Positions 1 through 64,000 of a stretch of 64,000 nucleotides of DNA are shown here, piece after piece (positions within the stretch are counted from its first letter, which is position 1; each line of letters starts with the position of its first letter). The notes under the pieces are model-generated. The model did not search any database. It was not told the origin of the DNA and worked only from the letters and a program-made list of their open reading frames with translations. The stretch covers positions 21,250,089-21,314,088 of the forward strand of contig JAJEKV010000005.1 of assembly GCA_021234155.1 (NCBI GenBank), written 5' to 3'. This DNA comes from Isoetes taiwanensis. Its lineage: Eukaryota; Streptophyta; Lycopodiopsida; Isoetales; Isoetaceae. The translations under genes and the position numbers were made by a program.

Positions 1-218
1 GTGAACCATATAAAACCATACAAACATATTAAATATAACCATATTAAATCATACAACCATATTAACTAAAATCATATAACCATATTAAACCATACAACCA
101 TACTCATTCTAAACCATATGTAAACATTGTAACCATATATAACCATTGAAACTATTCAACCATTGAAACCATATTAAATATATAAGGTAACATATATAAA
201 AACATATAACCTAACCTT
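1..218. repeat. AT-rich low-complexity tract with ACCATAT-like words
   Basis: The stretch is a run of degenerate AACCATAT / CATATTAAA words without a stable period. It has no reading frame of note. It could be a decayed minisatellite or the edge of an AT-rich transposon; nothing in it decides between these. Confidence 0.6.
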
Positions 219-1200
219 TCATATCTTGTCATGGCCACGTGTATTCCTCGTAGGCTGAAAGCGCCATGTCAAGAACCCGCGACCGCCACGCCATGGAGGG
301 CATGGCCCACACGCGATGTTTATTATTGCACTTTTTATGAGGTTCGAGGGTGCGGCCAGTGCTTCGCACCCTCTTCCTCTCCCCCGACCATTCTTCCTCC
401 CCTGTTTCTTCGAGCTCAGATTTTCCTTTAAGCGCGCCGCTTTTCCGATCAGGCGATCGACGAACCGAAGCCATTCCAAGGCCATCTTATGACAAGAGCT
501 TGGTCGACGGATCGGACGCCCAAATACCCAAAGTTCTCGCCAGATTGAGTGTTCGAAATGCGGCGCATCGCCTCGTAAGAAAGTGAGGCCCTTTTTAGTG
601 TCGCTTTTAGTTTTTCTCAAGTCCTTTATCGCATTTTTACTTATATTCTCGTTGTTAGAGGCTCTTATTAATCCCCTCGATACAATTTACGTACCGACAA
701 ATCCTTATTCACGCTTTGCGAACGACTATACCCACATGGAATCGAACACGAAGCCTCCTCCTCATCCAAAGAAATCCGTGTATGTTTTTGTAATATCATA
801 CCCTTTTTTAATCTCATTTCTCTTCATCAGACGTTCTCTGCTTTCTCATTAATCTCATTTGTCTCCACTGTTTCTCTATTTTCTCATTAATCTCACTAAT
901 CTCTCTCATATCTGCTTTTCCTTTTGTATTGTTTTCTCGCTTTTTGTTATCTTTTTCTTTCTTGGGTTGAATTGAATACATTGTACGTGCAAAAGTGAGA
1001 ATAGTGGTTAGAGTAGTAGCAAGCAACCGAGATGTCACTCATCGAGACGTGTTTTAGGAAGTAAGATATTGCGTAGCATTAATGTAAGAGATTCACAAAA
1101 GATATAGCTAAACCTGCCTAAGAATGTTTCATAACGTAACATAACTAGGAATGTTTTTCTCCCAGTAAGAACTAAGAATAGGAATTGCTTCACAGAATCT
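219..1200. other. No gene recognised; non-coding sequence
   Basis: The first half (about 230-590) is GC-richer and the second half is T-rich (about 590-1000). Short open frames occur on both strands but none looks like a known protein, and they overlap one another in opposite directions. I see no terminal inverted repeat, LTR edge or RNA gene here. Confidence 0.5.
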
Positions 1201-2520
1201 GCATTTCTAACTCACAGCATATCCTCCACTGCAGGAGACATGCAGGAGTGGCGAGTTGAGAATACTTCAGCTTGCCAAATTCGAGAAGTATTGTGCCTTC
1301 TTCTCAACTCGCGAGAAGTCGAGAACTTCTCGACTCGGGCGAGGCGAGAAGAGGGAGTGTACACTACGGACTGCTGGCCGGTTGAGGGATTCTCGACTCG
1401 CGATTCGGGATTGCACACAGCTACCCAATGTCTTCACATTCTTTTTAAGCTCGTTGCAGCCTTCTCGACTCGTGAGTCGAGAATGTCATACCCTCGTCAA
1501 TGGCCCTTTGTGCAAAAGCAGTGCCTCCACCCACCGAAATCACTCTCCTTCAACCATGCTCATCGAATATTGCGAAGAGGACCGGGTCCGACCGGGTGGA
1601 GGCCTCCGGCGACTACCAACTTTCTCGACTGCGGAGTCGAGAAAAAAACGCAGTTCTAGTGCACTTAGAGTTGGGCTGAGACGCCTTTTAACCACTCTCC
1701 CTTCTATCTTTCTGACATTGCGGCGGGAAGTGGTTTTGACCGGCTCAAGCAGGCCAACCTAGCAACCCACTCCTCTCGGTGTGGTCGCAGTGGCCTCTAC
1801 CCAATCAAAGACCGCCTCCTTCGAACCATCTTCGCCGTTATTTTAAGTAAGGGATGGGCTCATTGGGTGGAGGCCTCTACAACTAACCACAGTGGAAACC
1901 ACGTAGCTTGTTGGGGAGCATTTCCTTCTGGCCATGAAAGCGGGAATGCCTTTACCCAACCGCACTCCATGTGTACCATCCTGAGTTCTCGATGGAAGGC
2001 ATTCTCGACTTAAGAGTCGAGAATGTAGATACAGTTAACAATCGATTCTCGTGTAACCGCTAGTCGAGAATCCTCTCAGCCACTTCCCCCTGGTGGTGGA
2101 ATGCTAGTTAACTCCTACCCAGTCAGATTCCTCGAACCATCTTCGACGAATATCGCTGGGGGAGGGGCTCTGACCGGGTGGAGGCCTCTACAACCAACCA
2201 CTGGAAACCATTAGAAGCTTGTTGCCCGCGATTCTCGACTTTGCGAAGTCGAGAATGTAGACAGGAAGCCAAGCATTCTCGACTCGCAAGTCGAGAATCC
2301 CTTACAGCCAATTCTCCTGTCGAGAATCCCTTACAGCCAAGGCTTGCATTCTCTACAACTACTGCACTTTCTGTTCTCCTGTTTTTAGTCCCAAGTGCCT
2401 CTAGCCCGTAGAGCCACTCTCCTTCGAACCATCTTCCTCGAATATTGCGAAGAGGAGTGGTTCCGACTGGGTGGAGGCCCCTCCGACTAACTACAAGAGG
2501 ATGCATTTGAACCGCATCTC
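1201..2520. repeat. Degenerate minisatellite (period about 260-320 bp) carrying dense palindromes
   Basis: A recognisable block recurs near 1545, 1807, 2125 and 2409. It contains CTTCGAACCATCTTC, then a variant of GAATATTGCGAAGAGG, then GGGTGGAGGCCTC and an ACTAACCACA-like end. Between the blocks lie palindromes with arms TTCTCGACTC / GAGTCGAGAA near 1301, 1330, 1461, 1621, 2003, 2231 and 2275, with broken ones near 1389, 2042 and 2310. The copies are divergent. Open frames crossing the block (for example 1240-1659) change frame between copies and look non-coding. Confidence 0.65.
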
Positions 2521-3357
2521 CTGGGCCTTAGACCTAGCCTGATCTATGTACAACATTCCAAGAAAACAGTCCAAGAAAAAATACACCTAAAACGGAATCG
2601 TTTTTACCCCGATCCATTGTTTCTAGCCGAGCATCTCTCAACCCGTAGAGTAAATCATCTCTCGGCTGAAAATGTTGGACAAGGAAACGATGAATCTGGC
2701 TCGAGCTTATCGCCAGCTCCATTATTTAAACACGCATCGGCATGTTCTACCAAATAAAATAACGAGGCATCTCCTCAAACTCACCTCTTCACGCTAGAAT
2801 TCCTTGGGCCATCAGATCACGGATCCCGCAGCCTCACCTAGAGTCTTTGCTTCTTCACGGTCTCATCAAGAGTGTATTCGCGATCTAATACTTGTGTCAT
2901 CACGATTCTCGCCAGATCCCCGCTCCATGGCGCAGCAGAAGTAGAGTTCCCGTGTTCCGCGCCTCCTCCGGGCTTCCTACCTTAGTCCGCGTCATCGATC
3001 AAATCAATCGCTTGCAATAGGACGCTACGGTCGAAAAACACACATATGCAAGGCGCCATAGCGCACCATCATGCCAGGGGCCATTCCTAAATCGCTATAC
3101 GATGCTCGGCCCTTAACTCAAGGTCGCCAATGTCGCAAATAAGATAAACTACGCCCGCCACTAAGTCCCTTTGATGTGATTAAATTTCGAATAGTGTTTG
3201 GGCGGGCTAAAGGCGCACCGTGGCCGCACTTTAGCCCGCTTTTTTCATAAATGATTGCATGTCCTTAAATTCAAACTAAAGAACACGCCCGATCTTTTTA
3301 CATGCAGTCCTAAAACTCACAACGCTACGAGGAAACTTAATTTACGTAAGGGTCCGA
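2521..3357. other. No gene recognised; spacer before the phosphatase-type gene
   Basis: Mixed-composition sequence with short unrelated open frames on both strands. The only structure I can support is the hairpin at 3202-3239. A possible 3' splice site (GATCAG before 3361) precedes a lysine/arginine-rich frame, so the right part may be an intron of the following broken gene. Confidence 0.4.
3202..3239. repeat. Perfect 11-bp stem hairpin followed by a T run
   Basis: GCGGGCTAAAG at 3202-3212 is the exact reverse complement of CTTTAGCCCGC at 3229-3239. The loop is about 16 nt and the right arm runs straight into a T tract. In a bacterium this would read as a terminator. In this plant-like setting it is more likely part of a fold-back or miniature transposon end. 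Confidence 0.6.
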
Positions 3358-4660
3358 TCAGAAGAGGATGAGGGGGCATACAGACATGGCGACTTGGGGA
3401 AGGCATATCCCAAGAAGCGAGGCCGAGGGGATGCTAGTTCTAGCGGCACCAAGAAGAAGAAGACAAACACCCCATGTGAGCTCGAGGTTTATCTTTTGTC
3501 GGAATACCTTAACCGATCCATCCTTTCTTCTTGGCAAAGATTCACCGCGACTCACTAGTGATCACCGGCCTAACTCCGCTTCTTCGCCATCGAGGGACCG
3601 AGATAGAGCTTCTTGACACACCAGCAGATTCTTGGTGGTATGTCGAGGTATCAACAAGTGGGAAGGAGAAAGATCTGCTTTCTCCACCAAAGAGACAAGA
3701 AGAGCTCCCGAGACAAGTACAAGAAAATCGGTGTTGTGCTCTCCGCCTCCGCCAGATTCAAGCATTTAACACTACATGTCGAGGACTACCGTAAGAGTAA
3801 GTTCTATCACACCAAAAAATTATCGGTTTCAAATTATTCTCACTCTTCCATGAGCAAGGCTATGGGCACCAAAAAAGGCAGCGCCTTTAAATTGTCAAAA
3901 CCTTTGGGTGGAAGGATCCGAAGGGATGAAGGAGGCCGAACCCTAACATCCGTGGAGCTTGGAATGGAGATTTCCGTGAGTCAAGGAAAAACTGCTCAAT
4001 ACGGGAGCTTCACTTCTACCGCTCAAGACTCTACAACACTCGCAGTGGGGGAATGAAGTTGTGGTTCATACGTAAAAAAGTCCGCCAAAGACCAAAGATG
4101 GAGAAGATGACACCACACGGAGGAATCGATGACGAAGGAGAGACGAAGATATGGTCGACTTCAATAATGGATCCGTATGATTAGATCGATTTCACGTAGA
4201 GGGGCACGTAAAATGGAGCGGCCGGCTCAAGATATCCGCTGGGAATATCACACAAGCCGCCGCCGGACATTAGGGCCGCTGAAGGTTTGCACGGAGATGC
4301 CGCCTTGTTCAACCACGAAATTTAATCCAAAGACACATGCCGGAGATTCTCGAACTCGATGGTGCGACATCCCGCTGCGATCCAATGCCCGCGATGTCAT
4401 ACCTTTTAGCGATCGACCGGGTCAGCTTGTTCACCGAAGTCCGAGGAAGACCTCGGCGGGAAAAGACGCCCGTTCGGTAGTGGACGGCCAAGATTCGCGA
4501 GGGCGGCGCAAGTATTGCGCACGGAGAAGGAGGTGCCGCAGCGATCAAGGATAGATATGCCGCGCAGAGTGCAGTTCTTTTCACGGAGACGCCAAAGAAC
4601 CGAACCGGCCAAGATTAGTCAATGCTAACACAATAGCAGCCGAAAGTGCCGCCACGTGAG

Positions 4661-4905
4661 GTAAATAACTCGATTTTTCCATTCTCGACTTGAAGTCGAG
4701 AAAGCCATACCATCCTAACATTTCCCGATTATCATCGGGTTTCGACCGCGAGTCGAAAAGCCGTGGGAACACGTAAAATCAAAGGATGTAGAGTTTTCTC
4801 GACTTCGAAAACGAAAACCTAGAGAAATTTAGATTTCAAGGACTTTCGACTCATGAAATCGAGAAACCCCGGGCTACTATTTACCGCTTATTTCGGTGTT
4901 TGTAG
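4661..4905 (+). other. Probable intron containing four palindromes, copy A
   Basis: The segment starts GTAAATAAC after GAG and ends TTTGTAG before ATACTATC. Inside are four copies or relics of the TTCTCGACTC / GAGTCGAGAA palindrome, near 4681, 4741, 4796 and 4846. The corresponding segment in copy B is 9739-9993. Intron status is inferred from splice-like ends and from loss of coding character. Confidence 0.5.
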
Positions 4906-6518
4906 ATACTATCATGCTCGACATTGGTACATTGACCGAATGCAGCCTTTATCCCCGACTCGCATCATACACGCCAGGGCAACAAAGGAAAGCATTGGGT
5001 TGTCCTCGCCCTAAAGGAAAAACAGTGGCTCCCTGATAAGTGGAAGACCTTTGAGAAACTATGCGATATGTTCTCACTGAGGGCCGTGAAGATGATGAGG
5101 GAGAGGATGAAGAGGAGAAGAAGAAGAGAACACCAAGGAAAGGCAGGAGTCTCTCTCAGACCAATATGACCTCATTCTTAGCACCGAGGCGGTCCGGGAG
5201 AAATGGACCCAGATATGGGCTCAATGGACAAGAGGCAAGTCAAGGACAAAGAATGGAGAATTTCCATCCGTGCCGGACCCCAAGTTGTTTGACAAGCGCT
5301 CATGAAGAGGATACAGGGGCCTCACCTGACAAAGAAACGCTTTGACCCGCAAGGCGTAATCTTGGATGGAACAATCCCGCTAAGGAAGACTAGGAGTTCT
5401 AAAATGCAGATCTAAAGGATTATGCCACGCCCTAAAGCGACAAAATAAGTATGTTAGAAGAAGGCATCACTTGAGTTCTCGCAACGCTGCATCTAATGAA
5501 TACCATGACTTTGATTTTTACAAGGAAAAGGCTGCCCTTGATGAGGAAGACATGAAGGAATTGAACCGCCTATGTCAACCCTACATCAACACCAAGTCAA
5601 GCGCAACGCCAAAACCCTTCCTTTCCCCGAACGCAGCTATGGCAATTCTCAAGAGGAAGCTTGGATTCGGTGGTCCCATTTAAGGCCGACGATAGCTCCC
5701 CATTTCTCGTAACTTTGGGACACAAGGGATTTGGTGGTCCGAACCGCACTGACCAAAGGCACTATTTGTCATCAATATGATCAAGACCCCACCCTTTTTA
5801 TGACAAAGCCGACATAGAGCAAAGTACAAGACGGTTCCGACATGACCGACCGATACTTTCAGCCTTTTGTCTTTTGCATGCCGCAATCGACAACCGCCGC
5901 CTCCCAATGGGCACCGATATTAACTTCACCAACAAGATCATGTACTCCATATACCTAACTTGATCATGAGTGTAGACTTGGCTTGCCAAGGCACCAAGCT
6001 TTGCCAACATAGTTTTGGTTTTGATTTCAAGATCGGTCAGACCTCGATAAGTGGTGGTCTAGCGAGCATCATTATCTCGACAGTTCATGATCTCTCAAGA
6101 GCGTATGGAACCCCGAAGGGGGCAGATTTATGGAGGATGTTCCATCGATGGACAAGGTCAGCAAAGATGGTGCGACAGTGTCCTATACATAGAATTCCTA
6201 TCCGCCAAGAGTTATCAAGTACTTCATAACCACCGGGTCGAGGAAGATCAAATTGTATGCGAAGTGGTACATGAATGGTCTGTTCTCTCGTGGGGCTATG
6301 CCGCTTGGAATGAAACCTATATCCGTGGTTGGAAATAAGGACATGGTTGAAACCATTCTATTATACCCGATCCGCTTCATGAGCATTTCAAGGGGAGGAA
6401 GACAAATGGAAGCAAAGAAAGACGACGAGGACGAGGGAGACCAAGCCGACGAGACGTGAATGTCGGCGGGTTTAGACAAGGATGTCAGCCAACACATTCT
6501 TGAGAATCCGAGATTGAG

Positions 6519-6638
6519 GTGAGTTTACTTTGTTTATCGGTGTTTCTCGACTCACGAGTCGAGAAAACTCGCTTCCTTTCAATACCTTTTTTTTTCATTC
6601 TCGACTCACGAGTCGAAAAACTCGCTTCCTTTCTCGAC
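6519..6638 (+). other. Probable intron containing two palindromes, copy A
   Basis: The segment starts GTGAGTTTAC after GAG. The copy B version ends CGACAG before ATGTCATC; in copy A the final AG is missing, which may be a sequencing loss. Two palindromes occupy about 6544-6565 and 6599-6620, each followed by ACTCGCTTCCTTTC. Confidence 0.5.
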
Positions 6639-6858
6639 GATGTCATCATTTCGTGGAGTTCCATGTCAACGACTCGGATCATTGTCATTGATACCGGCGT
6701 TCACGCCGCGAGGAGGAGAGTGCACTCCACAAAGACAATCCAGAGCAAGACACCGCCACGCCTTAAAGGACCCGAAAAGATAATGATCCCGCATTTGGAT
6801 CCCGGCGAACCGGAAATATGGTCGAGCCAAACTCCAACCGATCCAAACCGGTCCCGCC

Positions 6859-7487
6859 AAGCTTGTAATATTTGACGCCAATGGAGTATTAGCTGCAGAT
6901 ACCACGATAAAGACGCCCCCGAGATTAACACCTCGCATCCCGACCGAATCGGAGCATAAAATAGTGTATCCGAGGCCTAGAGCTAAGGAAATTATTGAAT
7001 GGTGCATTGAACGGGATTCAAGTGGGCATATGGTCTTGTATGGCAAAGAAAAATATTGTCAATGTTCTTGGTGTTCTCGCATTTCAGTTTTGAAGTTCAA
7101 GTTCGCTTTGGGGAAGCCGAAGGGTCGAGCATGTGTCGGACCTCGATCCAGCCATCACAAAGGGGAAGCCTATAATGGTGAAAAGGTCGACAGGTTTATG
7201 AGCAATTCCAGACTATGGCAAACACAACACGCTGATCATAGACGACTCCGCCTACAAGTGCTATCATAACGCCAAAAAATACAATCATTGCTAAGCCATA
7301 TCGACCAAGAATATGAGACGGATAGGTGGTTGTCCTTCTGACCGTGTCCTGCCTTGGCGGAATTCCTCTTTGCCATTCTTGTCGCCGATGTGATTAGGAA
7401 CTATCCGAGCCTCACTAACCCGATCCGTAGAGCAAGGCGATCATGAAAGCTATGGACGACAAATATTTTGGTGAACAAGAAAAGTGA
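6859..7487 (+). pseudogene. FCP1/NLI-interacting-factor-like HAD phosphatase domain, copy A
   Basis: FCP1-homology domains are HAD-superfamily phosphatases that remove phosphate from Ser/Thr, classically on the RNA polymerase II tail. The domain opens with KLVIFDANGVLA at 6859-6894, matching the DxDx(T/V) motif I position but with Asn where the second Asp normally is. KIVYPRPRAKEIIEWCIER follows (about 6959-7016), the usual 'RP...FL..C...F' segment. LIIDDSAYKCYHN (7232-7270) matches the conserved late IDDSP.K motif. The end reads FAILVADVIRNYP, with a stop at 7485-7487. Frames shift at least twice in the middle (about 7015-7200). The Asn replacement makes catalysis doubtful, although plant relatives with DLNG exist. 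Confidence 0.65.
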
Positions 7488-8249
7488 CCTCTCGCCGATA
7501 GTCAAATTGTGTGAATATTGTAAACAAACGTGAAATGTATTGAACATTTTGTAATGAATATACTTGTATATTGAGTTGATGCCTTTCGACTCACGAGTCG
7601 AAAAGGCATGCTTGTCCCGTTGATGAGACCATTTGTATGTTTGATTGTGACCGGATGCAGCCACAATCTATTATGATAATGCTTCTACGCTATGTTGGCC
7701 TTTCTCGACTCAGCGAAGTCGAAAAGGCACCGGGTTGTACTTTCACTTTTATACCCTTTCTCGACTCGCGAAATCGAAAAGACACTACTTCCCACGCCAT
7801 TGGATGCAGCTTGTATGGAATGAATGTTCTCCATTGTAATTTGATTTCAACATTCTTTTCTTCGCTTTGACTAATGGCACCGTGAATTGTTAATCATACT
7901 CCCTTGCTCCGTGGTTCGTGCACGATCCCACACCAGACGCATCCCGCCAGCATCACGTAGACCGCCCAGCGGGTAATGATCCCGCCAAGGCGGAAGAAAT
8001 ACCATTCGCACGTATCCCTACACGCTACACTCTTGCCCTACTTTGAGATAAAGTTGCTCGAATTCGTGAGGTTGCTCGCTACACCCCTCGGGATAAAGAA
8101 CAGCGAAGAACAAAGAGAAAGTCCAGAAGCTCAAAGCATCTTGCAAGCATTGCATAACATCCACGGAGGTTGGGGAAGGAGCATATTCGATGGAAGGTCA
8201 TGGAGGCGAAAGTGGAGAAGTCTCCGTGGACAGTCGGCCGGTAGCTCCA
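7488..8249. other. 3' flank of the phosphatase gene, with three palindromes and a coding-like tail
   Basis: Palindromes lie near 7583-7607, 7700-7725 and 7759-7782. From about 7960 to 8249 the sequence regains a coding look on the plus strand (KSRSSKHLASIA-type text in copy B), but I cannot name it. It may be a further exon or a neighbouring broken gene that the CACTA element interrupted at 8249/8250. Confidence 0.4.
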
Positions 8250-8586
8250 CACTACAAAAACGTTGAGCCTTTTCGACGCCTATATCGACCTTTGAACGCC
8301 GATGCAACGCCGATCATCGACGCTCAAAGGTCGACGGTAAACCTCTATATCGACGCACGACCGCCGACATCGACGACCAAAACCGCCGAAATACGCGGTC
8401 GAAATAGCGGCGCCGATGGTCGACGATGAATCGCCGATCATCGATCGCCGGACGCGGGCGATGCCACGGCGATGCCACGCTGCCGCCCAAAGTCACCACC
8501 TAATCAACGCCGATGATCGACGCCACCGGCGTACTATGGTGGCGCGCTTCACGCCGAGGTTCGGGCCGCGTAAAGTGCGCACACGG
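8250..8586 (-). mobile_element. Truncated CACTA element terminus (copy A)
   Basis: The terminus begins CACTACAAAAACGTTGAGCC, a CACTA-type terminal sequence preceded by CCA. Dense CGACGCC / CGCCGATCATCGACG subterminal repeats follow. It matches the left end of the full element at 13362 but stops at 8586, where tandem copy B starts in mid-gene. It is a fragment that cannot transpose alone because the other end is missing. Confidence 0.85.
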
Positions 8587-9738
8587 TCCATCCTTTCTTC
8601 TTGCAAAGATTCACCGCGGACTCACTAGTGATCACCGGGTCAACTCCGCTTCTTCGCCATCGAGGGACCGAGACAGAGCTTTTGACACACCGCCAGATTC
8701 TTGGTGGTATGTCGAGGTATCAACAAGTGGGAAGGAGAAAGATCTGCTTTCTCCACCAAAGAGACAAGAAGAGCTCCGAGACAAGTACAAGAAAATCGGT
8801 GTTGTGCTCTCCGCCTCCCGGCCATTCAAGCATTTAACACTACATGTTGAGGACTGCCGTAAGAGTAAGTTCTATCACACCAAAAATTATCGGGCCAAAA
8901 TTATTCTCACTCTTCCATGAGCAAGGCGATGGGTTCAAAAAAGGCAAAGCGCTTTTAAATTGTCGTAACCTTGGGTGGAAGGATCCGAAGGGATGAAGGA
9001 GGCCGGAACCCTAACATCCGTGGAGCTTGGAATGGAGATTTCCGTGAGTCGTGGAAAAACTGCTCAATACGGGGAGCTTCACTTCTACCGCTCAAGACTC
9101 TACAACACTCGCAGCGGGGGAATGAAGTTGTGGTTCATACGTAAAAAGTCCGCCAAAGACCAAAGATGGAGAAGATGACACCACACCGGAGGAATCGATG
9201 ACGAAGGAGACGAAGATATGGTCGACTCCCCAATAATGGATCCGTGATGATCGATCAGGATTTCACAGAGAGGGGCACGTAAAATGGAGCGGCCGGCTCA
9301 AGATATCCGCTGGGAATATCACACAAGCCGCCACCGACATTAGGGCTACCGGTTTGCACGGAGATGCCGCCTTGTTCAACCATTGTGGAATTTAATCCAA
9401 AGACACATGCCGGAGATTCTCAACTCGATGGTGCGACATCCCGCTGATCCAATGCCTCGCGGATGTCATACCTTTTAGCGCATCGACCGGGCCGCTTGTT
9501 CACCGAAAGTCCGAGGAAGACCAAGGGAAAAGACGTCCGGCTCGGGTAGTGGACGGGCCGCATTCGAGGAGGGCGGCGCAAGTATTGCGTGACGAGAAGG
9601 AGGTGCCGCAGCGATCAAGGATAGATATGCCAAAGCGAGAGTGCAGAGTTCTTTCACGGAGACGCCAAAGAACCGAATCGGCCAAAGATTAGTCAATCGC
9701 CGTAACACAATAGCAGCCGAAAAGCCGCCCACGCGAGG

Positions 9739-9993
9739 TAAATAACTCGATTTTTCCATTCTCGACTCAGCGAAGTCGAAAAGCCATACCATCCTAACAT
9801 TTCCCCGATTATCATCGGGTTTCTCGACCGCGAAATCGAGAAAGCCGTGGGAACACGTAAAATCAAAGGATGTAGAGTTTTCGACTCGCGAAAGTCGAGA
9901 AAACCTAGAGAAATTTAGACATTCAGGACTTTCTCGACTCGCGAGTCGAGAAACCCCGGGGCTACTATTTATCGCTTATTTCGGTGTTTGTAG
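9739..9993 (+). other. Probable intron with four palindromes, copy B
   Basis: GTAAATAACTCG to TTTGTAG, the counterpart of 4661-4905. Palindromes lie near 9759, 9822, 9880 and 9931. The last is a clean copy with CTCGACTCGCGAGTCGAG at its core. Confidence 0.5.
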
Positions 9994-11610
9994 ATACTAT
10001 CATGCTCGACATTGGTACATTGATCAATGCAGCCCTTATCCCGACCGATCATACACGCTAGGCAACAAAGGGAAAGCATTGGATTGTCCTCGGCCCTAAA
10101 GGAAACAGGCTCCCCTGATAAGTGGAAGACCTTTGAGAAACTATGCAGATATGTTCTCACCGAGGGCCGTGAAGATGATGAGGGAGAGGATGAAGAGGAG
10201 AAGAAGAAGAGAACACCAAGGAAAGGCAGGGAGTCTCTCTCAGACCAATATGACCTCATTCTTAGCACTGAGGCGGTCTGGGAGAAATGGACCGAGATAT
10301 GGGCTCAATGGACAAGAGGCAAGTCAAGGACAAAGAATGGAGAATTTCCATCCGTGCCGGACCCCAAGTTGTTTGACAAGCAGCTCATGAAGAGGATACA
10401 GTGGCCTCACCTGACAAAGAAACGCTTTGACCCGCAAGGCGTAATCTTGGATGGAACAATCCTCGCTAAGGAAGACTAGGAGTTCTAAAATGTAGGACGA
10501 AAGGATTATGCCACGCCCTAAAGCGACGGCAATAAGGCGTTAGAAGAAGGCATCACTGAAGTTCTCGCAACGCTGCATCTAATGAATACCATGACTTTGA
10601 TTTTACAAGGAAAAGGCTGCCCTTGATGAGGAAGACATGAAGGAATTGAACCGCCTATGTCAACCCTACATCAACACCAAGCTGAAGCTGCACGCCAAAA
10701 CCCTTCCTTTCCCCTCAACGTGCTATGGCAATTCAAGAGGAAGCTTGATTCGGGTGGTCCCATTTAAGGCCGACGATAGCTCCCCCATTTCTGGTAACTT
10801 TGGGACACAAGGGATTTGGTGGTCCGAATCGCACCGACCAAAGGGCACTATTTGTCATCAATATGATCAAGACCCCACCCTTTTTATGACAAAGCTGACA
10901 TAGAGCAAAGGGTACAAGACGGTTCGACATGACCGACCGGATACTTTCGGGCTTTTTGTCTTTTGCATGCCGCAATCGCATTAACCGCCGCCTCCCAATG
11001 GGCAAACTGATATTAACTTCACCAACAAGATCATGTACTCCATATACGAACTTGATCATGAGTGTAGACTTGGCTTGTCAAGGCACCAAGCTTTGCCAAC
11101 ATAGTTTTGGTTTTGATTTCAAGATCGGCCGTAGACTGATAAGTGGTGGTCTAGCGAGCATCATTATCTCGACAGTTCATGATCTCTCAAGAGCGTATGG
11201 AACCCCGAAGGGGGCAGATTTATGGAGGATGTTCCATCGATGGACAAGGTCAAAGAAAGATGGTGCGACAGGTCCTATACATAGAATTCCTATCCGCCAA
11301 GAGTTATCAAGTACTTCATAACCAGCCCGGGTCGAGGAAGATCAAATTGTATGCGAGTGGTACATGAATGGCCTGTTCTCTCGGGGCTATGCCGTTTGGA
11401 ATGAAACCTATATCCGTGGTTGGAAATAAGGACATGGTTGAAACCATTCGGTCATACCCGGATCCGCTTCATGAGCATTTCAAGGGGAGGAAGACAAATG
11501 GAAGCAAAGAAAAGACGACGAGGACGAGGGAGACCAAGCCGACGTGAGACGGAATGTCGGCGGTTTAGACAAGGATGTCACCGACACATTCTTGAGAATC
11601 TGAGATTGAG

Positions 11611-11737
11611 GTGAGTTTACTTTGTTTATCGGTGTTTCTCGACTCGCGAAGTCGAGAAAACTCGCTTCCTTTCAATACCTTTTTTTTTTCATTCTCGACT
11701 CATGAAGTCGAGAAAAACTCGCTTCCTTTCTCGACAG
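11611..11737 (+). other. Probable intron with two palindromes, copy B
   Basis: GTGAGTTTAC to CTCGACAG, followed by ATGTCATC. Both splice-like ends are present, unlike the copy A counterpart. The palindromes are near 11636-11659 and 11693-11717. Confidence 0.55.
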
Positions 11738-11952
11738 ATGTCATCATTTCGTGGAGTTCCATGTCAACGACTCTCGATCATTGTCATTGATACCGGGCGT
11801 TCACGCCGCGAGGAGGAGAGTGCACTCCACAAAGACAATCCGAGCAAGACACCGCCACACTTAAAGGACCCGAAAAGATAATGATCCCGCATTTGGATCC
11901 CGGCGAACCGAAATATGGTCGAGCCAAACTCCAACCGATCCACCGTCCCGCC

Positions 11953-12587
11953 AAGCTTGTAATATTTGACGCCAATGGAGTATTAGCTGCGTGATACCAC
12001 GATAAAGACGCCCCCGAGATTAACACCTCGCATCCCCACCGTAATCGAGCATAAAATAGTGTATCCGAGGCCTAGAGCTAAGGAAATTATTGAATGGTGC
12101 ATTGAACGGGGATTCGGGGCATATGGTCTTGTATGGCAAAGAAAAATATTGTCAATGTTCTTGGTGTTCTCGGCATTTCAGTTTTGAAGTTCAAGTTCGC
12201 TTTGGGGAAGCCGAAAGGGTCGAGCATGTGTTCGGACCTCGATCCAGCCATCACAAAGGGGAAGCCTATAATGGTGAAAAGGTCGGGACGTGGTTTATGA
12301 GCAATTCCGTGACTATGGCAAACACAACACGCTGATCATAGACGACTCCGCCTACAAGTGCTATCATAACGCCAAAAAAATACAATCATTGCTAAGCCAT
12401 ATCGACTTGAAGAATATGAGACGGATAGGTGGTTGTCCTTCTGACCGGTCCCGCCTTGGCGAATCCCTTTGCCATTCTTGTCGCCGATGTGATTAGGAAC
12501 TATCCGAGCCTCACCCAACCCGATCCGCAGAGCAAGGCGATCATGAAAGCTATGGACGACAAATATTTTGGTGAACAAGAAGAGTGA
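11953..12587 (+). pseudogene. FCP1/NLI-interacting-factor-like HAD phosphatase domain, copy B
   Basis: The same domain as in copy A. KLVIFDANGVLA lies at 11953-11988, VYPRPRAKEIIEWCIER from about 12061, and LIIDDSAYKCYHN at 12332-12370. VADVIRNYPSLTQPDPQSK follows from about 12481, then MKAMDDKYFGEQEE and the stop at 12585-12587. Copy B preserves the final 30 or so codons without a frame break. The first Asp of the HAD nucleophile motif is present and the second is Asn in both copies, so this is a real feature of the gene and not a reading error. The domain length fits a single FCP1-homology domain. The function on a living protein would be Ser/Thr dephosphorylation or phospho-peptide binding; activity here is unproven. 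Confidence 0.65.
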
Positions 12588-13361
12588 CCTCTCGCCGATA
12601 GTCAAATTGTGTGAATATTGTAAACAAACGTGAAATGTATTGAACATTTTGTAATGAATATACTTGTATATTGAGTTGATGCCTTTCTCGACTCACGAGT
12701 CGAGAAAGGCATGCTTGTCCCGTTGATGAGACCATTTGTATGTTTGATTGTGACCGGATGCAGCCACAATCTATTATGATAATGCTTCTACGCTATGTTT
12801 CGGCCTTTCTCGACTCGCGAAATCGAAAAAGACACCGGGTTGTACTTTCACTTTTATGGGCCTTTCTCGACTCGCGAAATCGAGAAAGACACTACTTCCC
12901 ACGCCATTGGATGCAGTTGTATGGAATGAATGTTCTCCATTGTAATTTGATTTCAACATTCTTTTCTTCGCTTTGACTAATGGCACCGTAATTGTTAATC
13001 ATACTCTCCTTGCTCCGTGGTTCGTGCACGATCCGACACCAGCCGCACGCATCCCGCCAGTATCACGAGACCGCCCAGCGGGTACACGATCCCGCCAAGG
13101 CGGAAGAAATACCGCTTCGCATGCATCCCTGGCCACGCTTACACTCTTGCCCGCCTTTGGGATAAAGTTGGTCGAATTCGTGAGGTTGCTCGCTACACCC
13201 CGGGATAAAGAACAGCGAAGAACAAAGAGAAAGTCCAGAAGCTCAAAGCATCTTGCAAGCATTGCATAACATCCACGGAGGTTGGGGAAGGAGCATATTC
13301 GATGGAAGGTCGCGGAGGCGAAAGTGGAGAAGTCGGGTGGACAGTCGGCCCAGTAGCTCCA
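12588..13361. other. 3' flank, copy B, up to the CACTA-2 insertion point
   Basis: Counterpart of 7488-8249. It holds palindromes near 12679-12712, 12805-12828 and 12866-12889, then coding-like sequence (KVGRIREVARYTP and RTKRKSRSSKHLASIA) that runs to the CACTA terminus. The protein is not recognised. Confidence 0.4.
12679..12712. repeat. Longest perfect palindrome: 16-bp arms around a 2-nt centre
   Basis: ATGCCTTTCTCGACTC (12679-12694) is the exact reverse complement of GAGTCGAGAAAGGCAT (12697-12712), with AC at the centre. The copy A equivalent at about 7580-7610 has lost bases in both arms. This is the clearest member of the palindrome family seen throughout 1.2-12.9 kb. Confidence 0.9.
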
Positions 13362-16163: not shown

Positions 16164-19100
16164 TTGGAATGCCAAAATTACCCTATGGACTAAGTTACAC
16201 CTGGTTTGCAAAAAAACGACACACTTACGCCCTACATTGCGAGATTCGCCACCACCTCCTAGGCCAATTGACTACGAAAGTGTGTTGCACATGAGATAGT
16301 TTGGCGCTTCTTCGAGAAGGGGTGGGCTTACGGCCACAAAACTTGGTCCCTAGGGCAATGTTGACGTTAAAGGTCCATTGGCGAGACATCACTATTCGAG
16401 GAGGGAAGGTTCGTCCGCCCGGGGCCTTCGGAGAGGAATTTTGGAGCAAGCCGCTTCCGGGTGGTTTTAGGGTCCGTGCTCAAGCGCCAACACCCCCTCT
16501 ACCTCAAGACACGGGGTTAGGTCCTAGTCAAATCTAACAAGGATAGAGGCCTCAAACGTGAACCCTATGAGTTGCCGTGTTCTAGCCGGGGTTTGGCGTT
16601 TTGGGTGCCGAAGTTTTGGTCTTTTTGCACTTGGGACGTAATAATGATCACATGCGCTTGAGAACGCCAAGCAAGGGAAACCGACGGAATGGAGTTTGAC
16701 CTGCTCACTCCCGCTGTGGCGCTTAGAAGTCAAGGGCCGCTTTGCAAAGAGCAAGACATTCAGAATTCGTAATTAATGCATAGTACGGACTTAAATTCTG
16801 ATTTTTGTCACTAGCTTCCTAAGTCATCGCCAACATACAGCCAACTTTCAAAAAATTTTGATATGGTTTAGATCAAATAGTTTGCACTAGAACGGTCCGG
16901 CAGCCTGTTGTTGGGCAGCCGAAATGGGCACACTTGCCCAAGTCAAACAAGGCCAGACCGCAAGGCCTCCTCATTAGAGGGGAGAGTCCGAACCCCAGAG
17001 GCGAAGCCCAAAAAGCTTCCCGAGGCAGCCTTTTTCGGCAGCGCCCACCGGGGCGACGCTTAAAGACCACACTCCCGGATCTCGGTTCACGATCCGACCG
17101 TTGAATCCTTTGTTCCGTGAACCTGGGTCCGAGAAGGTCCAAAAATCCAACATCCGGCCCGGAGAAAATATCAAATCAAAGGCCCCCGCGGGCGACAAGT
17201 GTAGAAACTAAAGTGTTTTGTCGCTCGGACATTGCGGAAGCTCAAATGCCGATCCGACTTCGCCACATCGTCCGGAATGCCAAAATTACCCAAGGGACCA
17301 AGTTACACGGGCCAGTTTTGCAAAAAGAAAGAAACACTTACGCCCTACATTGCAAAGATTCAAAGCAGCCACCTCCTAGGCCAATTGACTCACGAGTGTG
17401 TTGCATGAGATAGTTTGGCGCTTCTTCTCGAGAAGGGTGGGCTTCCGCCACAAAACTTGGTCCCTAGGGCAATGTCGACGCTCGAGTCCATTGGCGAGAG
17501 AGATCACTTGCCCGAGAGGGGAAGTTGCCCGTCGCCGTGGCCTTCGGAGAGGAATTTTGGGGCAAGCCGCTTCGGTGGTTTTAGGGTCCGTGCTCAAGGC
17601 CCACACCCCCCTCTACCTCAAGACATCTACAAGTAAAGGTCCTAGTCAACCGGACAAGGATAGAGCCTCAAACGTAAACCCTATGAGTTGCCGTGTTCTA
17701 GCAGTGGTTTGCGCTTTTGGGTGCCGAAGTTTTGGTCTTTTGCACTTGGGACGGGCCGATCACATGCAGTTGAGAACGCTGAAGCAAGGGAAACTGACGG
17801 AATGGAGTTTGGACCTGTACTCCCCCATTGTGGCGCTTAGAAGTCAAGGGCCGCTTTTGCAGCAGAAAGACATTCAGAATTGTAATTAATGCATAGTAAT
17901 GGACTTAAATTTGACTTTTGTCACCTAGCTTCCTAAGTCATTGCCAACATACAGCCCAACTTTCAAAAATTTTGATATGGTTTAGATCAAATAGTTTGCA
18001 CTAGAACGGTCCGCAGCCCGTTGTTGGGCACCGAGCCGCACACTTGCCCAAGTCAAACAAGGCCAGACCTTGCAAGGCCTCCTCATTAGAGGGGAGAGTC
18101 CGAACCCCGTGAGGCGAGCCCCAAAAGCTTCCCGAGGCAGCTTTTTCTCGCAAAGCGCCCACGGGGGCGACGCTTAAAGACCACACTCCCCATCTCTCCT
18201 GCTCCGATCCCACCGCTGAATCCTTTGTTCCGTGAACCTGGTCCGAGAAGGTCCAAAAATCCAACATCCGGCCGGAGAACATATCAAACCAAGCCCCCGC
18301 GGCGACATTGTAGAAACTAAAGTGTTTTGTCGTCGGACATTGCGAGGTTCAAATGCCGATCCGACTTTCGCCACATCGTCCTGAATGCCAAAATTACCCT
18401 AGGGACCAAGTTACACCTGGCCGGTTTTGCAAAAAGAAAGAAACACTTACGCCTCTACATTGTAAAGATTCAGCAGCCCACCTCCCAGGCCAATTGACTA
18501 CGAAGTGTGTTGCACATGAGATAGTTTGACGCTTCTTCGAGAAGGGGTGGGCTTCGCCACAAAACTTGGTCCCTAGGGCAATGTCGACGCTCGAGTCCAT
18601 TGGCGCAGATGCATCACTTGCCCCTAGGGGAAGTTGCCCGTCCCCGCTGTGGCCTTCTGGAGAGGAATTTTGGGGCAAGCCGCCCGGGTGGTTTTTAGGG
18701 TCCGTGGCTCGCGCCCACACCCCCTCTACCTCAAGACACGGCCAAGGGTCCTAGTCAACCGACAAGGATAGAGCCTCAAACGAAACCCTATGAGTTGCCG
18801 TGTTCTAGCGGTGGTTTGGCGCTTTGGGTGCCGAAGTTTTGGTCTTTGCACTTGGGACGGGGCCGATCACATGCGCTTGAGAACGCCAAGCAAGGGGAAC
18901 TGACGGAATGGAGTTTGGACCTCATCTCCCCCATTGTGGCGCTTAGAAGTCAAGGGGCCGCTTTTGCAAAGAGCAAGACATTGTGAATTCGTAAATTAAT
19001 GCATAGTACGGACTTAAATTTGACTTTTGTCACCTAGCTTCCTAAGTCATCGCCAACATACAGCCAACTTTCAAAAATTTTGATATGGTTTAGATCAAAT

Positions 19101-22100
19101 AGTTTGCACTAGAACGGTCCCCGGCAGCCGTTGTTGGGCAGCCGAACCGCACACTTGCCCAAGTCAAACAAGGCCAGACCTTGCAAGGCCTCCTCATTAG
19201 AGGGGAGAGTCCGAACCCCGTGAGGCGAGCCCCAAAAGCTTCCCCGAGGCAGCCTTTTCGCAGCGCCCACGGGGCGACGCTAAAGACCACACTCCCGATC
19301 TCGCCTCGTGATCCGACCGCTGAATCCTTTGTTCCGTGAACCTGGTCCGAAAGGTCCAAAAATCCAACATCCGGTCCGGAGAACATATCAAACCGCTGCC
19401 GCCCCCCGCGGGCGACATTGTAGAAACCAAAGTGTTTTGTCGTTCGACATTGCGAGGTTCAAATGCCGATCCGACTTCGCCACATCGTCCCCGAATGCCA
19501 AAATTACCCTAGGGACCAAGTTACACCTGGCCGGTTTTGCAAAAAGAAAGAAACACTTACGCCCACATTGCAAAGATTCAAAGCCAGCCCACCTCCTAGG
19601 CCAATTGACTACGAAAGTGTGTTGCACATGAGATAGTTTGACGCTTCTTCAGAAGGGGTGGGCTTCGCCACAAAACTTGGTCCCTAGGGCAATGTCGACG
19701 CTCGAGTCCATTGGCGCAGATGCATCACCTGCCCGAGAGGGGAAGGTGCCCGTCCGCCGCCAGGCCTTCTGGAGAGGAATTTTGGGGCAAGCCGCCCGGG
19801 TGGTTTTAGGGTCCGTGCTCAAGGCCAACACCCCCTACCTCAAGACACGGCCAAAAGGTCCTAGTCAACCGACAAGGATAGAGCCCCCAAACGTAAACCC
19901 TATGAGCTGCCGTGTTCCAGCAGTGGTTTGCGCTTTGGGTGCCGAAGTTTTGGTCTTTTGCACTTGGGACGGGGCTTATCACATGCAGTTGAGAACGCCA
20001 AGCAAGGGGAACCGACGGAATGGAGTTTGACCCGATCTCCCCCAGGCGCTTAGAAGTCAAGGGCCGCTTTTGCAAAGAGCAAGACATTCGTAAATTCGTA
20101 ATTAATGCATAGTACCGGACTTAAATTTGATTTTTGTCACCTAGCTTCCTAAGTCATCGCCAACATACAGCCAACTTTCAAAAAATTTTGATATGGTTTA
20201 GATCAAATAGTTTGCACTAGAACGGTCCGGGCAAACCGCTGTTAAGCAGAAGCCGGCACACTTGCCCAAGTCAAACAAGGCCGACCTTGCAAGGCCTCCT
20301 CATTAGAGGGGAGAGTCCGAACCCCGTGAGGCGAGCCCCAAAAGCTTCCCGAGGCAGCTCTTTCTCGGCAGCGCACGGGGCGACGCTAAAGACCACACTC
20401 CCGATCTCTGCCTCGTGATCCGGACCGCTGAATCCTTTGTTCCGTGAACCTGGTCCGAAGGTCCAAAAATCCAACATCCGGCCCCGGAGAACATATCAAA
20501 CCACAAAGCGCCCCGGGGCGACATTGTAGAAACTAAAGTGTTTTGTCGTCGACATTGCGAGGTTCAAATGCCGATCCGACCACATCGTCCCGAATGCCAA
20601 AATTACCCTAGGGACCAAGTTACACGGCCGGTTTTGCAAAAGAAAGAAACACTTACGCCCTACATTGGTAAATTCAGCCCACCTCCTAGGCCAATTGACT
20701 ACGAAAGTGTTGCACATGAGATAGTTTGGCGCTTCTTCGAGAAGGGGTGGGCTTCGCCACAAAACTTGGTCCCTAGGGCAATGTCGACGCTCGAGTCCAT
20801 TGGCAGAGATGCATCACTTGCCCGAGAGGGAAGTTGCCCGTCCGCCGCTGTGGCCTTCTGGAGAGGAATTTTGGGGCAAGCCGCCGTGGTTTTAGGGTCC
20901 GTTTTCGCTCAAGGCCAACACCCCTACCTCAAGACATCTACAAGAAGGTCCTAGTCAACCGACAAGGATAGAGTCCCAAACGTAAACCCTATGAGTTGCC
21001 GTGTTCTAGGTGGTTTGGCGCTTTGGGTGCCGAAGTTTTGGTCTTTTGCACTTGGGACGGGTCGATCACATGCAGCTGAGAACGCCAAGCAAGGGGAACC
21101 GGACGGAATGGAGTTTGGACCTCGTATCCCGCTGTGGCGCTTAGAAGTCAAGGGCCGCTTTTGCAAAGAGGCAAGACATTCGTAAATTGATAATTAATGC
21201 ATAGTACCTGACTTAAATTCTGATTTTTGTCACCTAGCTTCCTAAGTCATCGCCAACATACGCCAACTTTCAAAATTTTGGATATGGTTTAGATCAAATA
21301 GTTTGCACTAGAACGGTCCGGTAGCCTCGTTGTTAAGCAAAATGAAATGGCACACTTGCCCAAGTCAAACAAGGCCAGACCTTGCAAGGCCTCCCATTAG
21401 AGGGGAGAGTCCGAACCCCGGAGGCGAGCCCCAAAAGCTTCCCGAGGCAGCCTTTTTTCGGGGGCCACGGGGCGACGCTAAAGACCACACTCCCTGATCT
21501 CTGCCCCGTATCCCACCGCTGAATCCTTTGTTCCGTGAACCTGGTCCGAAGGTCCAAAAATCCAACATCCGTCCGAGAACATATCAAACCGCTGCCCCCG
21601 GCGGCGCTTGTAGAAACTAAAGTGTTTTGTCGTTCGGACATTGCGAGGCTCAAATGCCGATCCGACTTCGCCACATCGTCCTAATGCCAAATTACCCTAG
21701 GGACCAAGTTACACCTACCGGTTTTGCAAAAAGAAAGAAACACTTACGCCTACATTGCAAAGATTCAGCCCACCTCCCAGGCCAATTGACTACGAAAGTG
21801 TGTTGCACATGAGATAGTTTGGCGCTTCTTCGAGAAGGGGTGGGCTTCGCCACAAAACTTGGTCCCTAGGGCAATGTCGACGCTCGAGTCCATTGGCAGA
21901 GATCGATCACGGCCCGAGAGGGGAAGTTGCCCGTCCTGCGTCGCTGTGGCCTTCTGGAGAGGAATTTTGGGGCAAGCCGCTCCTGTGGTTTTAGGGTCCG
22001 CGTTCTCAAGGCCAACACCCCCTCTACCTCAAGACACGGGCCAAGGTCCTAGTCAAATCCGACAAGGATAGAGCCTCAAACGTAAAACCCTATGAGTTAC

Positions 22101-23465
22101 CAAAATTCTAGCAGTGGTTTGGCGCTTTTGGGTGCCGAAGTTTTGGTCTTTTGACTTGGGACGTGGGCTTCATCACATGCGCTTGAGAACGCCGGGCAAG
22201 CTGAACTGACGGAATGGAGTTTGACCTCAGACTCTCCTGCCAGGCGCTTAGAAGTCAAGGGGCCGCTTTTGCAAGAGCAAGACATTCGTAAATTCGTAAT
22301 TAATGCATAGTAGGGACTTAAATTTGATTTTTGTCGCCTAGCTTCCTAAGTCATCGCCAACATACAGGCCAACTTTCAAAAATTTTGGATATGGTTTAGA
22401 TCAAATAGTTTGCACTAGAACGGTCCGGGTACCGTTGTTGGGCAGCCGAGCCGCACACTTGCCTCAAGTCAAACAAGGCTGACCTTGCAAGGCCTCCTCA
22501 TTAGAGGGGAGAGTCCGGAACCCCGTGAGGCGAGCCCCAAAAGCTTCCCCGAGGCAGCCTTTTCTCGCAAATAGCCTCACGGGCGACGCTAAAGACCACC
22601 CTCCTGATCTCTTGCCCTTTGATCCCGACCGCTGAATCCTTTGTTCCGTGAACCCGGTCCGGTAGGTCCAAAAATCCAACATCCGTCCGGGAGAACATAT
22701 CAAATCGCTGGCGCCCCGGCGCGCGGCGCGGTAGAAACTAAGTGTTTTTGTCGTCGGGACATTAAGTGAGGTTCGAAATGCCGATCCGACTTCGCCATTA
22801 TCGTCCGAATGCCAAAATTACCCCTAGGGACCAAGTTACACCTGGCGGGTTTTGCAAAGAAAGAAACACTTACGCCTCTACATTGCAAAGATTCGCCAAA
22901 ACCTCCTAGGCCAATTGATCTACGAGTGTTGCACATGAGATAGTTTGGCGCTTCTTCGAAAGGGGTGGGCCGCCACAAAACTTGGTCCCTAGGGCAATGT
23001 TGACGCTCGAGTCCATTGGCGAGACGCATCACCGCCCGAGAGGGGAAGTTGCACGTCCGCTGCCGTGGCCTTCTGAGAGGACTTTTGGGGCAAGTCGCTT
23101 CCGGTGGTTTTAGGGTCCGTGTTCACGCCAACACCCCCCCACGCCAAGACACCTGGCAAGGTCCTAGTCAACCGACAAGCATAGACCCTCCGGAACGAAA
23201 CCCCCATGAGCTGCCGTGTTCTAGCAGGGTTTGCGCTTTGGGTGCCGAAGTTTTGGTCTTTGCACTTGGGACGCGGGTCGATCACATGCGCTTGAGAACG
23301 CCGGGCAAGCGTAACCGACGAATGGAGTTTGACCTGCATCTCCCCGTTGGCGCTTAGAAGTCAAGGCCCGCTTTTGCAAGAGGGGCAAGACATTCAAAAT
23401 TGTAATTAATGCATAGTACCTGACTTAAATTCTGATTTTTTGTCCTAGCTTCCTAAGTCGCCTAG
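16164..23465 (+). repeat. Satellite array 1: about 6.6 tandem monomers of about 1.1 kb
   Basis: The marker AATGCCAAAATTACCCTAGG or a variant recurs near 16169, 17276, 18385, 19494, 20594, 21684 and 22807, giving a period of about 1.09-1.12 kb. Each monomer also contains GGTTTTGCAAAAAGAAAG, CCAATTGACTACGAAAGTG, AATGTCGACGCTCGAGTCC, TAATTAATGCATAGTA and TTTGCACTAGAACGGTCC. The last copy breaks off near 23455. Monomers are close to each other and only distantly similar to array 2. The many short open frames repeat with the period but shift frame between copies, so I do not call genes here. Confidence 0.9.
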
Positions 23466-23538
23466 CTTGTTGAGATAAACTACATCTTCGCATGTTGGTA
23501 GGGTATTAGTTCTCATAGCAGGGGACAAAATTAAAAAA

Positions 23539-63815: not shown

Positions 63816-63816
63816 C

Positions 63817-63832
63817 GTCAATTTCTCCAAAG
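63817..63832. repeat. 16-bp inverted repeat, right member
   Basis: GTCAATTTCTCCAAAG, exact reverse complement of 56515-56530. Confidence 0.85.
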
Positions 63833-64000
63833 AGGGTAGAGGCCATTCGGGCAGTCAGGCGATTGGACTTCACCCTTATGTCCGGAGTGTCTAGGTGGCA
63901 TATGTTGGAGCCCGCGTGGAAGAAATTGCTTATGGAAGTTGCAATATTATTGTTGCCTATAGTATACACAAATAATCGTGTCAAAGTATTTTCTTATTCA
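63833..64000. other. Unique sequence at the right edge
   Basis: Short non-repetitive stretch after the satellite array. Too short to assign. No CACTA terminus is visible. Confidence 0.4.

Follow-up and report, generated by a model that had tools for sequence, protein, structure and literature searches.

A near-perfect palindrome recurs in a 64,000-nucleotide stretch of the Isoetes taiwanensis genome (hereafter the window), where it sits in introns and 3′ flanks of a seemingly duplicated gene, and the question that this locus raises is what such a repeated unit is. The original prediction described a dispersed palindrome family, and its reality was borne out by a scan of the window with both arms (11 + 11 bases), a centre of 0-8 bases and up to 5 mismatches in all. 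The scan returned 26 rows, which reduce to 24 distinct sites once overlapping alternatives at 4674 and 4676 are dropped. All lie within 1300-12887, whereas each of ten window shuffles (first-order Markov) held 0 or 1 such palindrome. None was found by the same scan in 14000-64000, in agreement with the earlier remark that none was seen in the CACTA elements to the right, and the longest arms are, as had been noted, of 16 bp (12679-12712, an extension of the site at 12684-12707).

The motif is a CpG-rich dyad of 24 bp with near-perfect symmetry. Its centre is less constant than its arms, position 12 being G-C in 83 of 119 sites and arm positions 5-10 being paired in 108-114 of 119, a count that is biased because most loci had been picked by a pattern of exact arms around an unconstrained centre. 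Some of the central variation looks like C-to-T change at the two central CpGs. Residual long-read errors may account for many of the 1-2 base indels, as the assembly is described as nanopore-based with Illumina correction (PMC8566536). Beyond the 24-bp core there is slight symmetry at offset 2 (59 paired; shuffle mean 42, maximum 56), and at other offsets the flanks are within the shuffle range or lower. Nothing in Rfam matched in the window, the exact palindrome with a 2-base centre was absent from the viral contigs and GTDB genomes, and a literature search by the motif letters gave unrelated subjects among the matches listed.

Alignment to a large element, C60, reveals that the duplicated gene belongs to the interior of a cut-and-paste DNA transposon (Table 1). 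The duplication itself stands, with copies offset by ~5.08 kb (an alignment of 4666 matches, 360 mismatches and 178 gapped columns), but its identity has changed: what is repeated in tandem is part of the transposon. The left end of the element falls beyond the window, at G000:C1056:21246903 (L033:804), and has an exact left terminal repeat; the right terminal repeat was not found in the window by an end scan of its first 20 kb. Within the window the placement of palindromes in introns and 3′ flanks is real, those of the 3′ flank being located past the stop of the last coding block, and it arises because the palindromes occupy the non-coding parts of the transposon. Three of the four proposed introns have both GT and AG, whilst AG is missing from the one around pair C copy 1. 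The intact homologous last coding block at L008 matches NIF (PF03031) at 1.2e-10. The stitched NIF read of the window gave no Pfam match and no meaningful PDB match, and ten window pieces of the gene gave weak below-cut-off Pfam matches only. Ten open frames at 33-62 kb, the region previously assigned to CACTA elements, yielded one weak below-cut-off Pfam match.

Table 1. Features of the window, with strand and supporting detail.
Feature	Position	Strand	Detail
Transposon interior	1..8233	+	C60 positions 3168-11355; blastn 85-87% identity
Palindrome cluster A, 8 sites	1300..2298	.	Two-arm scan; 1300-1326, 1326-1351, 1389-1412, 1461-1484, 1621-1644, 2001-2024, 2231-2256, 2275-2298
Probable intron around cluster B copy 1	4661..4905	+	GT...AG
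Palindrome cluster B copy 1	4681..4866	.	4681-4703 and 4842-4866, relics in between
Probable intron around pair C copy 1	6519..6638	+	GT start; no AG here, AG in copy 2
Palindrome pair C copy 1	6543..6620	.	6543-6566 (exact arms) and 6597-6620
Final coding block of copy 1, phosphatase like NIF (PF03031)	6862..7487	+	Frameshifted; L008 homologue
Palindrome cluster D copy 1, 3′ flank	7582..7781	.	7582-7605, 7701-7726, 7757-7781
Tandem second copy, right part of same element	8584..13344	+	C60 6528-11355; 88% identity
Probable intron around cluster B copy 2	9738..9993	+	GT...AG
Palindrome cluster B copy 2	9758..9953	.	9758-9783, 9820-9843, 9877-9902, 9930-9953
Probable intron around pair C copy 2	11611..11737	+	GT...AG
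Palindrome pair C copy 2	11635..11715	.	11635-11659 and 11691-11715
NIF-like last coding block copy 2	11956..12587	+	Frameshifted; L008 homologue matches NIF
Palindrome cluster D copy 2	12684..12887	.	12684-12707, 12806-12830, 12863-12887

Across the I. taiwanensis genome, 3659 copies of the palindrome have exact arms and 9725 sites are within 3 mismatches of TTTCTCGACTCGCGAGTCGAGAAA; reversed controls gave 0. With thousands of copies, the family is neither peculiar to one locus nor a random recurrence; the original prediction had named as counting against it a single locus, or random occurrence lacking intron enrichment. An unexplained dispersed palindrome becomes the signature of a lycophyte transposon family, of which the genome holds 2642 right ends and 2692 left ends, and the 24-bp motif, with its empty reversed control, is a handy genomic tag for it. 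The terminal inverted repeats of the family read AAGTCGTATTTAATTAAAGTGGGAC... and, among pairs drawn from the 100 right and 93 left ends among the matches listed, nearest left and right ends within 30 kb faced each other in 63 of 63 cases. Their spacing was mostly 3.5-4.6 kb (30 pairs) or 11-12.7 kb (17 pairs). Target-site duplications were exact over 4 bp in 19 of 20 sampled insertions and over 5 bp in the remaining one, versus 1.15 of the 20 expected to show 4 bp in shuffles. Six further complete elements had 4 bp in four cases, an 8-bp match in C14 and none in L021; a local search for degenerate partner ends at 12 loci gave no new pairs. In the samples taken, the family thus consists mostly of 11-12.7 kb and 3.5-4.6 kb elements with common ends and palindromes.

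Palindromes were restricted to the inner side of these ends, with 98 (up to 5 mismatches) in 128,843 bp inside versus 0 in 62,694 bp outside. This count covers 25 of 28 non-overlapping stretches, namely those holding an end, of which 20 were picked by palindrome and 5 by end. The density of half-sites was 1.3-4.1 per kb in six complete elements, versus 0-0.17 per kb outside at four loci and 0.06 in the window from 14 to 64 kb. Four short elements have in common with C60 only 57-110 bp of the left end, 73-241 bp of the right end and matches at palindromes; the other matches of at least 40 bp, on both strands, each overlap a palindrome. Within the four, the layout is subterminal and asymmetric, with positions (up to 7 mismatches) recurring 508-588 bp from the left end and, on the right, both 145-166 and 653-1284 bp from the terminus. 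In C60 the 4.4 kb next to the left end hold no palindrome, and two of the five loci picked by right end alone (L027, L031) have none within ~1.5 kb of that end.

The reading that we prefer, at a probability of roughly 0.6, is that one cut-and-paste transposon family carries the palindromes in its interior as a repeated cis motif, to which a dimer likely binds. The other readings weighed here carry odds that are not mutually exclusive. It had been proposed that the units descend from a very short fold-back transposon preferring introns, that is, a separate micro-element with both the larger element and introns as insertion targets. The identical motif does occur in differing immediate flanks and in thousands of copies, but the palindromes have no excess of 1-4 bp flanking duplications: 4-bp duplications accompany 1 of 119 sites, versus 4.4 in shuffles. 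Those of 5 bp accompany 2 of 119 (0.7 in shuffles, maximum 4) and those of 6-8 bp none of the 119. As the palindromes also keep to the inner side of the larger element's ends in all 25 stretches, this candidate was rejected as highly improbable. Hairpins in RNA, the motif acting in transcripts through splicing, transcript ending or small-RNA production, would suit the window sites, which lie in NIF-gene introns and 3′ flanks, and all two-sided arm changes keep pairing. However, these number only 4, against 109 one-sided changes among 1190 cells, which points to symmetry of sequence rather than of pairing; this proposal is weakened accordingly and we regard it as quite unlikely.

It is also very unlikely that the motif consists of sites for a host protein, such as a transcription factor, insulator or silencing factor, carried to drive or tame expression of the transposon. 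Its CpG-rich, symmetrical dyad would be apt for such a protein, yet copies are absent from the sampled sequence outside the element (a small sample) and from 14-64 kb of the window, though a host factor should have sites in the host. Passive spread, in which a functionless recombination- or replication-prone unit was multiplied within the transposon by slippage and gene conversion, seems to us unlikely, if less so. It would account for neighbouring duplicates, such as the 54-56 bp repeats of pair C and near-tandem units in short elements, and for palindrome copy number differing between homologous elements. The cores are also not clearly more conserved than their flanks between homologous copies (79-92% in seven cores versus 73-92% in 60-bp flanks), which tells against the preferred reading too, although drift is expected in dead copies. 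Set against this, the four palindromes of cluster B copy 2 lie 53-62 bp apart with dissimilar intervening sequence, and positions relative to both ends recur in the four short elements.

Paired binding sites for a dimeric protein, the remaining proposal, fit best of the three readings originally offered, and by analogy with TNPA we infer dyad sites for an element-encoded dimer as the best mechanism for the preferred reading. The two-fold symmetric motif would be bound by a homodimer that the large element encodes, be it the DUF7869 protein or another one. Joint binding of the spaced arrays close to both ends would pair the transposon ends and permit or control excision, the role ascribed to TNPA on CACTA subterminal repeats. 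Coding exons presumably cannot tolerate palindromes, which would explain why those of the large element lie in introns and 3′ flanks. If the palindromes do serve as binding sites, a common cis code ties large gene-carrying elements to their short derivatives, much as happens in CACTA elements.

The candidate transposase encoded by C60 is a protein whose only Pfam match is DUF7869, and the C60 family carries the NIF phosphatase gene. DUF7869 gave 9903 first-look candidates in the genome, and 150 of 150 scored matches were above cut-off. It went unnamed in the literature searched, had no match in PDB by sequence, and none of 37 pattern matches in viral contigs was confirmed as a relative; the AlphaFold model (mean pLDDT 36) was too poor to use. 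In the alignment, D32 is identical in the 6 rows covering it and 7 copies show no variation at D112, D151 and D154; judged from sequence, these aspartates could form a DDD triad. A concrete, testable role is hereby offered for DUF7869. No palindrome occurred at eight further DUF7869 loci, which were stretches of 2.1-3.5 kb rather than whole elements, so the motif is not tied to DUF7869 in general. The three strong NIF loci examined elsewhere all lacked the palindrome, an end and DNA similarity to C60. NIF has therefore also been amplified in other settings, and its tie to transposition is weak. We offer only tentatively, as a rather doubtful extension, that DUF7869 is the transposase, NIF a regulator of transcription or activity and the arrays of the CpG-rich 24-bp dyad synapsis and regulatory sites, a CACTA-like architecture arisen independently in another superfamily that also picks up host gene fragments.

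The likeness to CACTA (En/Spm) elements and TNPA lies in a short motif in inverted pairs forming palindromes, in its subterminal placement, asymmetric between ends (in the four short elements, not near the C60 left end), and in motifs that differ between families. The soybean CACTA element Tgmt*, as described in the published passages, has 4 subterminal repeats on the left able to form 2 palindromes, 24 on the right forming 12 palindromes, and a 3-bp target-site duplication (PMC2613891). In contrast, the quillwort ends are AAGTCGTATT... rather than CACTA, the duplications are of 4 bp, the motif is one 24-bp dyad, and the palindromes reach deep into the large element, in its introns. Nor was a CACTA transposase found: eight translated pieces of two large elements, with broken frames, gave no tnp2-type match in Pfam. 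By published descriptions, the 4-bp duplication length fits the Sola superfamily. Sola elements are reported with 4-bp target-site duplications, AT-rich in the described Sola2 cases, with sizes of 2-9 kb and some >15 kb, and in seed-free plants such as Physcomitrella (PMC10741241, PMC3627910), and in the fern Azolla more than in Salvinia (PMC6786969). Duplication length, large size and a seed-free host are common ground, to which a DDD triad in DUF7869 might add, whereas the Sola passages mention neither palindromic arrays nor a NIF gene.

Fold-back elements and MITEs are likewise palindromic, high in copy number and non-coding, but the quillwort palindromes lack duplications of their own and turned up solely within a single larger element. 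Bacteria have many-copy families of short dispersed palindromes in their REP and Rickettsia palindromic elements; here the carrier is instead a eukaryotic transposon. Pack-type gene-carrying transposons are known from Mutator, CACTA and further superfamilies, whose ends and duplication lengths differ from those seen here. A likeness to these is seen in the possibly captured NIF of the large element and in gene fragments of one short element, L020. Six open frames from the four short elements were scanned, and the only matches came from two frames of L020, in which a Myb/SANT-like fragment scored 1.7e-14 and a RING-like one fell just under cut-off.

The palindrome is real and genome-wide, and a family of DNA transposons with 4-bp duplications, in which it recurs as an internal repeat, explains it in its main lines. 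Twenty four distinct two-arm sites with a short centre were found in the window, whereas ten shuffles of it gave 0 or 1 apiece, which bears out the original observation of a palindrome family at 1.2-12.9 kb. In both copies of the NIF gene they occupy two introns and the 3′ flank, and a further cluster sits upstream of that gene. The two gene copies are spaced ~5.08 kb apart, and their alignment has 4666 matching columns, 360 mismatching ones and 178 with gaps. The intron positions first proposed match GT...AG motifs; the one exception is 6519-6638, which in that copy lacks its acceptor AG. A genome-wide scan for the two-arm pattern, as had been proposed, covered 1,658,258,908 bases in 1110 contigs; a passage of PMC8566536 describes the Isoetes taiwanensis assembly, built with nanopore and Illumina data, as 1658.30 Mb in 204 scaffolds and 909 unplaced contigs. 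The pattern (exact arms, centre 0-8 bases) gave 3659 matches and its reversed control 0, while the perfect 24-mer at up to 3 mismatches gave 9725 (control 0). Among the matches listed the centre was mostly GC, followed by AC or GT, the pattern that C-to-T change at the two-base CpG steps in the middle of TTTCTCGACTCGCGAGTCGAGAAA would produce.

The first 24 loci, which represent 23 distinct places (locus L004 lies inside L008), were all picked via exact-arm palindromes, and every one aligned to others over at least 150 bp. A shared stop point, ...ATGAGTCCCACTTTAATTAAATACGACTT with small variants, was present in fourteen inspected loci, and the other element end, ...ATTTGTCCCACTTTAATTAAATACGACTT, is its inverted relative. 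Genome-wide, the right end was found 2642 times and the left end 2692 times at up to 2 mismatches (reversed controls, 0). When 100 listed right ends were compared with 93 from the left-end list, 63 lay no more than 30 kb from a left end, and the nearest pairs faced each other in every case (63/63). The spacing of these pairs was 3.5-4.6 kb in 30, 11.0-12.7 kb in 17 and other values, from 5.1 to 26.7 kb, in 16. Exact 4-bp duplications flanked 19 of the 20 insertions with both flanks examined, the other having 5 bp; shuffled flanks gave 1.15. Given the facing end pairs and the 4-bp duplications, the carriers of the palindrome form a family of cut-and-paste transposons. The outermost terminal bases, AAGTCG, have AGTCG in common with the palindrome arm GAGTCGAG; one protein might recognise both tips and arms, or the sharing might be by chance.

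The suggestion that the palindrome is itself a very short fold-back transposon was rejected, because flanking duplications were looked for and none were present. Its distribution was counted in 28 stretches that do not overlap (four others that did were left out), 25 of which contain an element end. These 25 held 98 palindromes on the inner side of the end and 0 on the outer; 20 of them were chosen by palindrome, which inflates the inner count and leaves the outer zero unaffected. The three stretches without an end held 12 more. Six complete elements had half-site densities of 1.3-4.1 per kb, versus 0.06 per kb at 14-64 kb of the window. At three of five loci picked by the right end alone, a palindrome lay within ~1.5 kb inside that end, and 20 of 50 listed perfect palindromes lay at most 5 kb inward of one of the exact right ends listed (chance ~0.8% each). 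In these samples the palindromes belong to the transposon family.

A complete large copy, C60, measures 11,809 bp, and its duplication is TTTA. Its left part encodes, on the minus strand, a DUF7869 protein (PF25273; one translated piece matched at 1.5e-20). Its right part carries a plus-strand gene, the final coding block of which matches a NIF-type phosphatase when taken from the homologous copy L008 (PF03031, 1.2e-10). The C14 and window copies both align to C60 across left and right parts; the large element is described from these copies. The window begins inside its element copy, in which the right part is tandemly duplicated; the right end of this copy was looked for and not found. What four complete short copies (3663-4242 bp) have in common with C60, both strands compared, is confined to 57-110 bp at the left end, 73-241 bp at the right end and matches of at least 40 bp, and every such internal match overlaps a C60 palindrome. 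With up to 7 mismatches allowed, all four carry palindromes at similar positions: one or two at 508-588 bp from the left end, two to five at 653 to 1284 bp from the right end and, closer to the right end at 145-166 bp, a degenerate one. Neighbour distances below 400 bp were 46-74, then 99 upward (next group 99-127), with one at 31. Several left-end palindromes have a variant centre from which most right-side copies differ, and the two element ends may carry distinct site versions; the L010 stretch, one of those concerned, holds no element end. One of the four short elements, L020, carries domain fragments that look to have been captured from host genes.

Locations of palindromes, elements and neighbouring repeats
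Feature	Location	Observation
Palindromes in window	window 1300 to 12887	
Left end of window's copy	G000:C1056:21246903	3.2 kb before window
Short element	L020:4192-8433	Myb/SANT-like domain fragment (1.7e-14); RING-like fragment just under cut-off
Left-end palindromes	L024:2425, L021:2878, L020:7828, L010:2899	variant centre, e.g. CTTCTCGACTAGTGAGTCGAGAAT
Insert within an element copy	L023:5170-7210	alignment gap; translated piece resembles hAT-type protein, presumably a nested transposon
Adjoining element, outside its right end	L013:375-1456	translated pieces (reverse strand) resemble a Gypsy-type polyprotein
Tandem array	window 16400-23500	period ~1.09-1.12 kb; six or more units, which differ by many small indels
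Match to genomic stretch L011	window 22393-23459	71% match to L011:5758-6823
Recurring peptide	window 57000-64000	HALHDKIPHPHPRPIDYECDGSELLW... in translations

The mobile family, its ends and duplications, and the confinement and position of the palindromes were shown on samples; for function, our best inference is that the palindromes are protein docking sites, putatively dyad sites for a dimer that the large element would encode. This is favoured by their exact two-fold symmetry, by arm positions better kept than the centre (a comparison biased by how the loci were found), by their being common to elements with unrelated interiors and by their subterminal, asymmetric layout. Changes are one-sided and not compensatory, which points to the DNA sequence rather than RNA pairing and so also to dyad sites. 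However, the palindrome cores had no clear extra conservation between homologous copies, two of the five right-end-picked loci had no nearby palindrome, and there are none near the left end of C60, all of which count against docking. Excerpts of PMC2613891 describe subterminal palindromes in an asymmetric set in the soybean CACTA element Tgmt*, like the layout in the four short elements, and subterminal repeats of En/Spm recognised by TNPA.

The 4-bp duplication does not match CACTA (3 bp in Tgmt*, in the same excerpts) or Mutator (7-12 bp, in a passage of PMC10741241), but agrees in length with Sola (passages of PMC10741241 and PMC3627910). Sola elements are known from Physcomitrella (PMC10741241, same passage) and are more numerous in the fern Azolla than in Salvinia (an extract of PMC6786969). 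Within the DUF7869 protein, D32 was conserved in all six rows covering it and D112, D151 and D154 in seven of seven copies; these could form a DDD triad, although the structure model of the protein was of too low quality to reveal its fold. DUF7869 is hugely amplified, with 9903 first-look genome candidates, all 150 of those scored above the cut-off and open frames of up to 987 aa. Eight other DUF7869 loci had no palindrome, and the motif therefore marks one lineage; CACTA families likewise differ in their subterminal motifs. The NIF phosphatase, too, is amplified, with 151 matches, many of which are dispersed, score ~65-80 bits and have open frames, and the three NIF loci examined (L084, L085, L086) had no DNA similarity to the transposon. 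Elsewhere in the window, the recurring peptide suggests a second tandem array.
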